The position numbers were made by a program, and so were the translations under genes. Below, piece after piece: positions 14,160 through 33,818 of a stretch of 42,660 nucleotides of DNA (its first letter is position 1; the number at the start of each line of letters is the position of its first letter). This DNA is from Patescibacteria group bacterium. GTDB lineage: Bacteria > Patescibacteriota > Patescibacteriia > 2-12-FULL-57-11. Where the stretch lies: NCBI GenBank assembly GCA_004299275.1, contig SCSU01000073.1:1-42660 (forward strand), in the 5' to 3' direction. Below the pieces are notes generated by a model. The model was given only the letters and a program-made list of their open reading frames with translations. It did not search any database and was not told where the DNA came from.

Positions 14160-15425
14160 TTAACCAAGCAATTCTTCCTCAATTTCCATCAAGCGGTTGT
14201 ACTTGGCCACGCGTTCGGAGCGCGAGAGCGAACCGGTTTTGATGTAATCAGCGTTTACCGCCACCGCTAAATCGGCAATGGTCGTGTCGCAGGTCTCGCC
14301 CGAGCGATGCGACACCGCCACAGCGTAACCGCTCTTCTGCGCCATCCTGATGGCGTCAATTGTCTCGCTGAGCGTGCCGATTTGATTAACTTTGATAAGA
14401 ATCGCGTTGGCCGCGCCGAGAGCGATGCCTTTTTTAAGCCGCTCCGCCTTAGTCACAAAGAGGTCGTCGCCCACCAGTTTCAACCGGCGGCCGAGCCGTT
14501 TAGTAATTAGCCGCCAATTTTCCCAGTCGTCCTCGGCCAGCGGGTCTTCGAGCGTCATCAGCGGATATTTTTTGGCCCAGCTTTCAAAAAGCCGCACCAG
14601 GTCCCGGGCTTTCCGCGACTGCCCGTCGCGGCGCAAGCGGTAAATTTTATTTTTCGCGTCGTAGAACTCCGTTGCCGCGGCGTCCAGCCCAAGCGCGACC
14701 TCGCGCCCGGGGACATAGCCGGCGGCGCGAATCGCCTTGACGGCAAACTGCAGGGCCTCCTCGTTCCGAGTGAGCCGCGGCGCGTAACCGCCCTCGTCGC
14801 CGACGAGCGTTTGATGGCCGGCTTTTTTAAGCAGTCCGCCCAGAACGTGGAAAATTTCCGCTCCCGCCCGCACCCGCTCGCGGAAAGTTTTTTGCCGCGG
14901 GATAATCAGGCACTCCTGCAGGTCAATAGCCCAGCCAGCGTGGACGCCGCCGTTTAACACGTTCATCATTGGTAATGGCAGAACGTAGGACGTAGAACGT
15001 AGAACGTAGACGCGACGTAGCCAGCGGTAAAGCGGAACGCGCGCCGCGGCGGCGGCGGCGTGAGCTGCGGCGAGCGACACGCCCAAAATCGCATTGGCGC
15101 CCAGCCGCGATTTGTTTGGCGTGCCGTCCTTTTTAATCATCACGGCGTCCAGCTGTCGGAGATCGCGCGCGTCGCGGCCAATAGCTAGTCGGCGCAAAAC
15201 CTTATTGACGTTGGCGACGGCTCGGAGCACTCCCTTGCCGCCGTAACGTTTTTTTTCGCCGTCGCGGAGCTCCAGCGCTTCGTGCGAACCAGTGGAGGCG
15301 CCGGAAGGCACGCTGGCAACACCAATCACGCCGGAACGCAAAGTCACCGCGACTCCCACCGTCGGATTCCCCCGCGAATCCAAAATTTCCCGGGCTTTTA
15401 CTTCCTTAATCCTAAAATCAGCCAT
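14160..15425 (-). CDS. eno: enolase, with a repeat-encoded insertion
   Basis: Enolase converts 2-phosphoglycerate to phosphoenolpyruvate. The 421-residue protein has ILDSRGNPTV, PSGASTGSHEALELRD, LVGDEGGYAP, LTLEDPLAEDDW-type metal ligand region, VGDDLFVTK and SHRSGETCDTTIADLAV. Between LYRWL and LPLPMMNVLNGG most enolases have about seven residues; here there are twelve (residues about 138-149), encoded by a DNA stretch (14981-15020) of tandem acgtag words also seen in spacers. The loop is exposed in known enolases, so activity could be retained. It is co-directional with gpmI downstream and the SIMPL gene upstream. Confidence 0.95.
   Translation of the reverse strand: MADFRIKEVKAREILDSRGNPTVGVAVTLRSGVIGVASVPSGASTGSHEALELRDGEKKRYGGKGVLRAVANVNKVLRRLAIGRDARDLRQLDAVMIKKDGTPNKSRLGANAILGVSLAAAHAAAAAARVPLYRWLRRVYVLRSTSYVLPLPMMNVLNGGVHAGWAIDLQECLIIPRQKTFRERVRAGAEIFHVLGGLLKKAGHQTLVGDEGGYAPRLTRNEEALQFAVKAIRAAGYVPGREVALGLDAAATEFYDAKNKIYRLRRDGQSRKARDLVRLFESWAKKYPLMTLEDPLAEDDWENWRLITKRLGRRLKLVGDDLFVTKAERLKKGIALGAANAILIKVNQIGTLSETIDAIRMAQKSGYAVAVSHRSGETCDTTIADLAVAVNADYIKTGSLSRSERVAKYNRLMEIEEELLG
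14981..15020. repeat. tandem GTAGAAC-type repeat inside eno
   Basis: Four to five copies of acgtag(a/g)(a/c) in tandem, in frame within eno. The reverse complement is ctacgttctacgttctac, the same vocabulary as spacer repeats at 24140-24164, 32666-32690 and 31713-31745. Confidence 0.85.
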
Positions 15426-24139: not shown

Positions 24140-24164
24140 CTATGTTCTACGTTCTATGTTCTAT
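24140..24164. repeat. 25-bp GTTCTA repeat at the queA stop codon
   Basis: Identical over 25 bases to 32666-32690. It includes the TAG stop of queA (24161-24163), so the repeat defines the end of the gene. Confidence 0.92.
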
Positions 24165-25692: not shown

Positions 25693-26760
25693 ATGGACAT
25701 CATTCACGAAATCAATAAACGCCGCGCCCGCGCCGCGGAAGTAGAAAAAGAACTCGCCGCTAACCCCGCCGGTGAGCGGGCGCGCGCGCTCGGCCGCGAA
25801 TACGCCGAGCTGGAAAAAACTCTGCGTCTGGCCGACGAGTTTGACGCGCTGAGCAAAAATTTGGAAGAAACGCGCCGCATCGCCGAGTCCGAAAAGGACC
25901 CAGAGCTCCGAGCTCTGGCCGCGGGCGAACTCCCCGGGCTTAAAGCGCGCCGGGTGGCGCTCGAGGCCGCCATAAACGACGCCTTGAGCCCGCCCGACCC
26001 GTTGGACGAAAAATCAATCATCGTGGAGGTCCGCGCCGGCACCGGCGGCGAGGAGGCGGCGCTCTTCGCCAGCGAACTTTTTCGGCTCTACGCGCGCTTC
26101 GCCGAACGGAAAAAATGGAAAACGACATTAGTTTCGGCTAACCGCACGGATTTGGGCGGCTTTAAAGAAGTGATTTTCGAAATCGCCGGAGAGGGCGCTT
26201 ACCGCGAACTCAAATACGAAAGCGGCGTGCACCGCGTCCAGCGCGTGCCGGCGACGGAAAAGACCGGCCGGGTGCACACTTCCACCGTAACGGTGGCGGT
26301 ACTGCCGGAGGTGGAAGAAGTGGATGTGCGCATTGACCCCAAAGACGTCCGCCTCGACACCATGACCGCCGGCGGCCACGGCGGCCAGAGCGTCAACACC
26401 ACCTACAGCGCCGTCCGCCTCACTCATCTGCCGACGGGACTCGTGGTCTCCTGCCAGGATGAACGCAGTCAGCGCCAAAACCGCGAGCGCGCCTTTCAAA
26501 TTCTGCGGGCGCGATTATTCGCCATGGAAGAGGAAAAACGGCGAACCGAACGAAGAGAGGAACGGCGGGCGCAAATCGGCACCGGCGAACGCGCCGAAAA
26601 AATCCGCACCTATAACTTCCCCCAAGACCGCCTGACTGACCATCGTCTTAAAGAAAGCTGGCACAACCTACCCACAATCATGGACGGCGATATCGCGCCA
26701 ATCGTGTCTGCCCTGCGCCGCGCCGACCGCGAAGGGACGATGGGGCAAGGCGAAGAGTAA
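25693..26760 (+). CDS. prfA: peptide chain release factor 1
   Basis: RF1 reads UAA and UAG and releases the peptide. The 355-residue protein has the codon-recognition PAT in [19 protein letters not shown], and the catalytic GGQ in [19 protein letters not shown]. The residue after GGQ is Ser rather than the common His, a mild departure. The N-terminal coiled coil (about 1-90) and the [29 protein letters not shown] stretch are typical. It is followed 46 bases later by prmC, whose product methylates the GGQ glutamine. Confidence 0.96.
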
Positions 26761-26766
26761 AGAGCA

Positions 26767-26806
26767 AGGTCAGACCTCTAATGGCGGTCTGACCTCTAAC
26801 CTTTTT
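26767..26806 (+). terminator. 10-bp hairpin with T-run between prfA and prmC
   Basis: Arms 26767-26776 and 26786-26795 with a nine-base loop, then ctaacc and five T immediately before the prmC ATG. The gap between stem and T-run makes termination doubtful; it may be another palindromic spacer repeat or an attenuator of prmC. Confidence 0.5.
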
Positions 26807-27724
26807 ATGCTTATCCGCGAGGCGCTTTTCGCCGGAACAAAAAAACTTAGCCGGCATCGCGAGGAGTGGAGCTCCAACGCGCTCGACGCCGAGCTCCTCC
26901 TCGCCTTCGCCCTAAAAAAACCGCGCGAATTTCTCTACAGCCATAACGAAAGACCGCTGCCGCCAGCGGCAGCAAAGCGCTACCGCGCGTATCTGGCGCG
27001 GCGGCTCCGCCACGAGCCGGTCGCTTACATCCTTGGCGCGAAAGAATTTTTCGGCCTCAAAATCGAGGTAAAAAAACGCTGCACGCTCATCCCCCGGCCG
27101 GAAACCGAAATTCTCGTCGAAAAAGCGCTTGAGCTGCTAAAATCTCCAAATACCAAATTCCAAATACCAAATTCCAAATACCAAATTATTGATGTTGGCA
27201 CCGGTTCCGGCGCGATTGCCGTCGCTGTCGCCCAAAATATGCCGCAAGTCCGCGTGATTGCGACGGACAACTCCGCCTGCGCCTTAAGAGTCGCCCGCCA
27301 AAACGCCCGCCTGCATGGCGTCGCTTCTCTGGTCAAATTCACCAAGGCCGACATCCTGCAGCCAACCTTATCCCCTATACCCTATTCACTATCCACTATT
27401 CACTACCCCCTATCCCCTTCGCCGCTCATCCTCGCCAACCTCCCCTACGTCCCCACTCGCGAGTGGCAAAAACTCCCGCCGGAAATTCGCCGCTATGAGC
27501 CGCGGGCGGCGCTTGACGGCGGCCGCGACGGCCTCACGCTCTATCGCCGGCTCCTAGCCCAAATCAACCAGCGCAGCATCAAATCATTCACGCTCCTCGC
27601 CGAAATCCATCCCGAACAAAAAACCGCCTTCCGGCGGTTGATCAAAAAATATTGGCCCAAGGCGCAAATTGCTTTCCACCAAGACCTGGCTGGAAAAATC
27701 CGGGTGGTCGAGACTATGGTTTGA
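26807..27724 (+). CDS. prmC: release factor glutamine methyltransferase, with two repeat-encoded insertions
   Basis: PrmC methylates the GGQ glutamine of release factors using SAM. The 305-residue protein has LIPRPETEILVEKAL, the SAM-binding IDVGTGSGAIAVAVA and the catalytic (N/D)PPY-type motif, here ANLPYVP. Two segments have no counterpart in E. coli PrmC: about ten extra residues before IDVGTG (KSPNTKFQIPNSKYQI), encoded by three copies of a 14-bp tandem repeat, and about fourteen before NLPY (TLSPIPYSLSTIHYPLS), encoded by ccctattcacta-type repeat. Both fall in surface loops between core elements. Folding is probably preserved, but the second lies next to the active site. Confidence 0.93.
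   Translation: MLIREALFAGTKKLSRHREEWSSNALDAELLLAFALKKPREFLYSHNERPLPPAAAKRYRAYLARRLRHEPVAYILGAKEFFGLKIEVKKRCTLIPRPETEILVEKALELLKSPNTKFQIPNSKYQIIDVGTGSGAIAVAVAQNMPQVRVIATDNSACALRVARQNARLHGVASLVKFTKADILQPTLSPIPYSLSTIHYPLSPSPLILANLPYVPTREWQKLPPEIRRYEPRAALDGGRDGLTLYRRLLAQINQRSIKSFTLLAEIHPEQKTAFRRLIKKYWPKAQIAFHQDLAGKIRVVETMV
27145..27186. repeat. three exact copies of a 14-bp tandem repeat inside prmC
   Basis: The unit TCCAAATACCAAAT occurs three times head to tail (27145-27158, 27159-27172, 27173-27186). Three units make 42 bases, keeping the reading frame, though one unit does not. Confidence 0.95.
27369..27419. repeat. CCCTATTCACTA-type degenerate repeat inside prmC
   Basis: Degenerate tandem of tatccactattcactac-like words in frame within prmC. 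Similar words (ttactgctcactatccc, tataccctaccc) occur in the spacer 10855-11249. Confidence 0.75.
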
Positions 27725-27731
27725 TAAAATA

Positions 27732-27770
27732 AAAGACTGGACCCCGACGTTACGTTGGGGTCCAGTCTTT
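27732..27770. terminator. bidirectional terminator hairpin
   Basis: A 39-base near-perfect inverted repeat with aaagactggacccc and ggggtccagtcttt as arms, bounded by A-rich and T-rich bases, between the convergent prmC and pilin genes. Confidence 0.85.
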
Positions 27771-31699: not shown

Positions 31700-31745
31700 C
31701 CCTACCTACTGCGTACTACGTTCTACCTACTCACTGCCTACTGCA
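31700..31745. repeat. GTAGAACGTAG-type repeat overlapping a gene end
   Basis: Built of ctac(c/g)tact, gtactacgttctac and ctcactgcctac words. It contains the TAG stop (31727-31729) and the last codons of the membrane protein gene at 31727. Same vocabulary as the eno insertion. Confidence 0.7.
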
Positions 31746-32665: not shown

Positions 32666-32690
32666 CTATGTTCTACGTTCTATGTTCTAT
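32666..32690. repeat. 25-bp GTTCTA repeat abutting a stop codon
   Basis: Identical to 24140-24164. It touches the TAA stop (32691-32693) of the secreted-protein gene. Confidence 0.92.
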
Positions 32691-33818
32691 TTACTTCACC
32701 ACTGCCCGCCAGACCTGAATCTTGCCGTCGCCGGTGCGCACACCGTAAGCAAAGGAACTGCCCACGCCGTATTCCGCCGGCGCGCCGTAAACTCGCGGCG
32801 CGTTAACCGAATCATTGGTCGCCGCCGTGTGAATCCGGATCGCCGATTCATACGCCGGGCTCGTCCCGCTCTCTGATGCAATCAATTTCTGAAAATATAG
32901 ACCGTCGCCTTTGACCATCAACTGTCCGCGCCGGCTAGAGTCGAGCCAAGAATAAGGCGGAGAACCGCTGCCGATTACCCGCCAGACATTTTCCGCATCG
33001 CCGCGGCCGTAAATGCCCGCTGTATTTTTGACGCCAATCTGGGAAGTGCTCTGCTCGCTTATAAGCCACTTGCCTGAAACACGGTTAAAACTGACTTCGT
33101 AAAGCGCGAGCGCGCTCATGTTAACGGCTTTCAGGTCCTGGAACCACGGCGCGAACTGGGCATAAGCGCGGCCGTCCACAGCGAGAATAAAATTAGCCGA
33201 ACTGCCGTAAACGCTGTTCGCGGTTTTCCAAATCGTGCCGTTGATGTAGGTCTCCCCTCTTTCAATTTTTAGCGTATGCAAACGGGGCGGACCGAGCACG
33301 CCGCCGGCAACATTAATCGCCGCGAAATCTTTGCCGTCGCTTTTATACCAGTGATAAATCGTCCGGCCGTCCGGCTTCCACAGCGGACCGTAGGTCTCTT
33401 CGCCATTCACCGAAGTGGCCATATCGCCGCCGGTCTGATGCAGCGGGTCCTCCCAGTGGTTGGTAATCACCGCCCGCTCCCCGACGCAAGTGCCGGTAAA
33501 ACGCACCAGCGAGCTCGGGGAGTCCTCGGCCATAACCTGCCAGTATTTGGTGAGCTTGGCGCCGTTGGCCTTTAAAGCGAAAAGTTTGGAAATTTTTTGC
33601 CCTTTGTAGCCATTCTCTTTCTGTACCTGCCAAACCAAATAAACGCGCTCGCCGCATTGGAACGCTTTAAAATCCTCTGGCTTGGGAACATTCGAGCTCC
33701 ACGGCGCCGGAATTTCCGCCACCAAATTTTTGGCAACGGGCAAATTGTCCGCGGCGATACCCGGAACCGGAAAAAAAGCGAAATTGACGGCAAAAACGGC
33801 TGAAAGTAATTTTTTCAT
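32691..33818 (-). CDS. secreted protein of unknown function
   Basis: The 375-residue protein has a signal peptide (MKKLLSAVFAVNFAFFPVPGIAA, cleavage near AA-D) and no other hydrophobic helix, so it is probably exported. The mature part is rich in Trp, Tyr, Gly and Ser with repeating strand-like segments (RVYLVWQVQKENGY, GRTIYHWYKSDGKDF, GRAYAQFAPWFQDL, GKWLISEQSTSQI), suggesting a beta-propeller or similar repeat fold; this is inference. It has a near-consensus promoter, GGGAGGA six bases before the ATG, and its own terminator, in contrast to the housekeeping genes. Confidence 0.75.
   Translation of the reverse strand: MKKLLSAVFAVNFAFFPVPGIAADNLPVAKNLVAEIPAPWSSNVPKPEDFKAFQCGERVYLVWQVQKENGYKGQKISKLFALKANGAKLTKYWQVMAEDSPSSLVRFTGTCVGERAVITNHWEDPLHQTGGDMATSVNGEETYGPLWKPDGRTIYHWYKSDGKDFAAINVAGGVLGPPRLHTLKIERGETYINGTIWKTANSVYGSSANFILAVDGRAYAQFAPWFQDLKAVNMSALALYEVSFNRVSGKWLISEQSTSQIGVKNTAGIYGRGDAENVWRVIGSGSPPYSWLDSSRRGQLMVKGDGLYFQKLIASESGTSPAYESAIRIHTAATNDSVNAPRVYGAPAEYGVGSSFAYGVRTGDGKIQVWRAVVK

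Follow-up and report, generated by a model that had tools for sequence, protein, structure and literature searches.

The window analyzed here is a 42,660-nucleotide stretch of a draft Patescibacteria genome (1.0 Mb, 73 contigs). Its plus strand carries prmC (26807–27724), which codes for a release factor N5-glutamine methyltransferase of 305 amino acids. The product scored 241.2 bits against TIGR03534 (curated cut-off of 199.1), which places it in the PrmC/HemK family, and it contains the PrmC_N domain (PF17827). The best Foldseek matches of the modelled protein are the HemK/PrmC structures 1vq1, 1nv8 and 2b3t. Motif I (DVGTGSG) and NLPY, an (N)PPY-type catalytic motif, are both present, and NLPY instead of NPPY is the catalytic motif in nearly all PrmC proteins sampled from the class. 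The prfA gene (25693–26760; PF00472, PF03462) lies just upstream of prmC, a gene order that is consistent with methylation of the GGQ glutamine of RF1/RF2 by this PrmC. The enzyme, with the two inserts described below, most likely still works.

An inverted repeat (AGGTCAGACC / GGTCTGACCT) occupies positions 26767–26795 between prfA and prmC, and two exact copies of GGTCAGACC were found within the window, both inside this repeat. Just 3′ of prmC there is a 19-bp near-perfect inverted repeat with a 1-nt spacer (AAAGACTGGACCCCGACGT/ACGTTGGGGTCCAGTCTTT, 27732–27770), a candidate terminator or dispersed palindrome. An Rfam search of the window returned no RNA family.

Two repeat arrays lie in the prmC coding sequence, both on the plus strand. 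At site 1 (27146–27187), CCAAATACCAAATT is present in three exact copies (42 bp); the TRF call spans positions 27140–27187, with a score of 87 and 97% match. The 14-mer is CCAAATA followed by CCAAATT, so that site 1 consists of six alternating heptamers. The true unit of both prmC arrays is 7 bp. Its peptide, PNTKFQIPNSKYQI, stands directly before beta1 (IIDVGTGSG). At site 2 (27369–27418; TRF period 7, score 51), ∼7 degenerate heptamers of the form CTATYCM read approximately as LSPIPYSLSTIHYPLSP, directly before beta4 (LILANLPY). Three heptamer units make 21 bp, or seven amino acids in whole codons. A sequence-only reading had proposed three exact 14-bp units before the SAM motif of prmC, a degenerate repeat adjoining NLPY, and residues absent from E. 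coli PrmC. Both repeats were recovered by TRF, and both lengthen the protein in frame, with alignment gaps relative to E. coli PrmC (2b3t) of 9 amino acids at site 1 and 8 + 5 amino acids at site 2. The recent expansion that it had suggested for site 1 is plausible, because the units are identical and the array is absent from G001, G002 and G003, which belong to the same family. Upon folding, the hairpin energy of both arrays was 0 kcal/mol.

An AlphaFold model of PrmC (five sequences, pLDDT 67, pTM 0.68), which serves as a guide only, places residues 113–125 in a coil between helix 98–112 and beta1, and residues 183–206 in a coil between beta3 and beta4. Within these segments, residues 119–124 (site 1) and 189–201 (site 2) are low-confidence coil. 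In the class I methyltransferase fold, the strands carry the SAM and NPPY sites at their C-terminal ends. Both inserts precede strands, and in the model they would therefore lie on the edge of the sheet opposite to the SAM site. The two array-bearing segments are probably surface loops that are permissive for inserts. The idea that an insert may block the substrate groove was rejected on this modelled loop position.

Neither repeat family is peculiar to prmC. A double unit of the site 1 family (CCAAATNCCAAAT) has 19 matches in the genome vs. 0 for its reversed control, and the CTATYCM double unit of the site 2 family (CTATYCMCTATYC) has 34 matches vs. 1. The exact 42-mer of prmC site 1, with the same A/T alternation, occurs again in tsaD (G000:C10:78244). 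In-frame arrays are also present in the genes for enolase, TsaD, ValRS (valS) and IleRS (ileS), and in a DUF4012 gene; those of ValRS and IleRS are at a homologous loop, but they are from different heptamer families. This genome-wide dispersal of both families rules out an explanation restricted to prmC.

Within the window, the enolase gene (14163–15425, minus strand; PF00113, PF03952) carries an in-frame CTACGTT array at positions 14978–15012 (minus strand), which is read as VYVLRSTSYVLP and lies between the Enolase_N and Enolase_C domains. Three further arrays are intergenic, with no strand assigned: GTTCTAC/GTTCTAT at 24140–24164 (TRF), an array at 32666–32690 that abuts the 3′ end of the minus-strand ORF 32691–33818 and has a 21-bp core in common with 24144–24164, and a degenerate, weak CTACGTA array at 31702–31731 (TRF score 32). 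The 21-bp core, GTTCTACGTTCTATGTTCTAT, occurs at 24144–24164 and at 32670–32690, and in both cases a minus-strand ORF has its 3′ end there.

When the window was scanned by period, lag 7 gave 3 regions and lag 14 gave 2, with 0–1 at any other lag. Sampled stretches of the genome that total 276 kb, and were partly picked because they hold arrays, contain 9, 10, 6 and 5 exact runs of at least 12 at lags 7, 14, 21 and 28, respectively, and at most 4 at other lags, with 0–1 in shuffles. The periodicity is thus not due to chance. Half of the sampled distinct arrays (11 of 22, in a sample partly chosen for arrays) are inside some ORF of at least 120 amino acids, and 6 of them, prmC included, have Pfam support. 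With STRR-like repeats the arrays share a period of 7 without excess of other periods, together with many dispersed copies of one unit family.

Period-7 or period-14 arrays were found in 25 of 88 PrmC genes of the class, a set that was ranked by similarity to the array-containing query and is phylogenetically non-independent (e.g., L139/L160 and L015/L104), so that percentages and p-values drawn from it may be inflated. Counts in these 88 genes were 26 at lag 7, 23 at lag 14, 3 at lag 8, and 0–1 at lags 4–6 and 9–13. Sites 1 and 2, with 13% of the bases, hold 23 of the 30 arrays (p = 3.6e-15, with the same proviso). The remaining 7 are in the loop before beta5 (5 arrays) or upstream of the start codon (2 arrays), and none was detected in other parts of the 88 coding sequences at the threshold used. 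The site 1 loop measures 24.3 amino acids in genes with an array and 20.4 in genes without (p = 1.3e-6, likewise open to inflation). Relatives with a protein of the same length but no repeats would have spoken against insertion; the reverse was observed, and the longer loops of the array-bearing relatives are usually built of heptamers other than those of this prmC. At least 10 unit families occur at site 1 in the class (AAATTCC, AAATTCT, AAGCTCC, AAGATAC, AAAAATT, AAACTAT, AACAATT, AATCGGC, AAGAGAC, AATCAGT, AAAATCT). In every sampled PrmC ortholog with an array, the reading frame is open across it. The contig scan for close prmC relatives yielded no same-species copy of prmC.

Recurrence is not restricted to this class or to PrmC. 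Among PrmC genes of the phylum's other classes, 6 of 69 carry such arrays. Two of these are at site 1, one being CTATCCA, and the others stand ahead of beta2, beta3 or beta5 or within the N-terminal domain (positions read from sequence). In G334, a genome of another class in 4 contigs, CTATCCA is the unit at site 1 of prmC and occurs at two further loci. A phylum-wide count of CTATYCM is a weak test, because reversing the motif for the control gives another heptamer pattern, which is present as well. In enolase, three different period-7/14 arrays are at one loop in three genomes (that of the window, G002 and G019), and 30 ValRS genes gave a count of 10 at lag 7 and 0 at lags 4, 5 and 9–13. Outside the phylum, an AAATTCC/AAATACC array was seen in L120, from a Flavipsychrobacter MAG (Bacteroidota).

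The units differ between lineages. AGCTCMA doubles number 6, 4 and 2 in the three sampled genomes of one genus, all of which have them, and occur once in 12 others tested. Within that genus, two species have AGCTCCA at prmC site 1 and the third has AAATTCC, at 71–75% protein identity, which argues for a quick turnover of the unit. Of the genomes in the same family as the window, G001 and G002 lack an array at site 1, and G002 carries CACGCTS at site 2. In G003, also of this family, prmC (L326) contains a long insert without repeats at site 1 (AGDAGPGLPPRARRSTAEWPSGRTRGVDGHG); inserts of several kinds can thus occupy this loop. Folding indicates hairpin-forming in-frame inserts, which resemble the Rickettsia palindromic elements, in the prmC genes L100, L102, L108, L111, L142, L160 and L121, either in these PrmC loops or at other positions, with a candidate hairpin in L327. 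The palindromic inserts of relatives encode peptides such as VGAIHELPLQGN, RPACRQAG, SCLRRNDERKSRND and HSERSEESR, and in L104 and L108 a palindrome is nested inside a heptamer array. These data suggest that the PrmC loops tolerate different types of repeated DNA.

The arrays have period 7, are dispersed, are built of lineage-specific units, are placed in frame and recur at the same loops. We consider it probable that both prmC insertions were made by a process that generates and spreads repeats in steps of seven, filtered by purifying selection. The prmC insertions would be local copies of lineage-specific heptamer families. Mutation in 7-bp steps, by slippage on a short seed, would create and lengthen arrays, and the size of the step may reflect how much DNA the replicative polymerase covers (its footprint), as hypothesized for heptamer slippage (PMC4692102). 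Short stretches of array would then reach unlinked loci, probably via template switching or recombination between arrays; the evidence for such copying is the common unit sequence and one common 42-mer, which biased seeding could mimic. In genes, purifying selection would retain only stop-free arrays that preserve the frame on balance and fall in permissive loops, in PrmC chiefly those before beta1, beta4 and beta5, where the inserts would be neutral. Since 7 and 3 have no common factor, an array reads one seven-amino-acid cycle whichever of a strand's three frames is used, and a stop-free heptamer is thus harmless in any frame.

It is possible, but we think unlikely, that 7-bp slippage occurred independently at each locus from biased seeds and with no copying, the likeness of the units then reflecting base composition and strand bias. 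Convergence would more easily account for the occurrence of AAATTCC and CTATCCA in distant lineages, and of AAATTCC/AAATACC even in Bacteroidota (L120). Against purely local slippage, a 42-mer with the same A/T alternation is present in prmC and tsaD, AGCTCMA units are nearly limited to one genus, and two families reach 19 and 34 matches in one genome. A bolder form of the process in steps of seven is doubtful: Patescibacteria would have a dedicated or unusually strong 7-bp repeat generator that keeps supplying new peptide segments to essential proteins. Such a generator might act by templated addition, or through a polymerase or repair enzyme that advances in steps of 7 bases, and it would spread lineage-specific heptamers.

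The arrays could also be mobile or selfish, with an enzyme inserting them as whole units in the manner of the Rickettsia palindromic elements. Like those, they interrupt unstructured parts of housekeeping proteins and keep the frame (PMC2996958). Hairpin-forming inserts do occupy the same PrmC loops in L100, L102, L108, L111 and L142, and the nesting of a hairpin within a heptamer array (L104, L108) points the same way. The arrays themselves, however, form no hairpin (0 kcal/mol) and have neither fixed length nor fixed ends, and their unit sequence varies while the period is constant, which makes this origin improbable.

An adaptive role of the inserts, as extra binding surface or in regulation, would fit with the same loops being hit in many lineages. 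We find it very hard to accept, because different lineages have unrelated peptides (KFQIPNS, KAPSSKL, TRDKRQA, SVISNQS), many orthologs are without any, and palindromic inserts occur in these loops too. A phase-variation contingency locus, in which gain or loss of 7 bp toggles prmC, has a very slim chance of being correct. Gain or loss of one 14-bp unit is a frameshift, and heptanucleotide repeats are reportedly linked to HMW1A phase variation in H. influenzae (PMC8262952). The arrays are short, often degenerate and in housekeeping enzymes, however, every sampled array-bearing ortholog is open across the array, and half of the sampled arrays are outside any long ORF. An assembly artefact is extremely improbable: the genome is a draft of 73 contigs and short repeats are open to miscounting, but the reading frame is open, similar arrays are found in dozens of independent genomes and also in few-contig ones (G334, 4 contigs), and the array, at only 42 bp, is shorter than usual sequencing reads.

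If repeat generation in steps of seven under purifying selection made these arrays, they would be a way to learn why bacteria have an excess of period 7, the cause of which has been treated as unresolved since a 2007 survey (PMC4692102). They would also show how streamlined genomes still acquire new protein segments, and would explain odd loop insertions in Patescibacteria proteins that are mistakable for functional domains.

Heptameric repeats and the in-frame palindromic elements of Rickettsia are already known; a literature search, thin on subscription journals, returned no report of core Patescibacteria proteins in which heptamer arrays recur at the same loops. Bacterial heptameric SSRs include GGGAATC in Xanthomonas, GGGGAYT in Nostoc, the cyanobacterial STRR and TAACTGA in Beggiatoaceae (PMC4692102, PMC4679880). 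As in the arrays described here, a lineage-typical 7-bp unit forms many dispersed, short and degenerate arrays, with a known excess of period 7. Those heptamer arrays are mostly intergenic (89–93% in Xanthomonas and 68% in Nostoc) and under-represented in ORFs (PMC4692102), whereas the Patescibacteria arrays are in frame in core enzymes and recur at the same protein loops with many units across one phylum. The Rickettsia elements are likewise short pieces of repeated DNA that enter housekeeping genes in frame where the protein is unstructured (PMC2996958), but they are palindromes, whereas the prmC arrays are direct repeats without a hairpin. Phase-variable SSRs are also direct repeats in a coding gene with a unit not divisible by three; here, in contrast, the genes are housekeeping ones, the units are few and degenerate, and there is no sign of switching.

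The tandem repeats of Borg ORFs are fast-evolving direct repeats that add residues with the frame intact, and their unit lengths are divisible by three (PMC9879509). The prmC unit is 7 (14 as a double unit), and the frame is held only by the total length. In coding sequence, selection is expected to eliminate tandem repeats whose unit is not a multiple of three, and the Borg pattern is the one that would arise if selection alone chose the unit; the period of 7 in these arrays thus most likely stems from the mutation process, which a unit of seven dominating inside essential genes leaves exposed.
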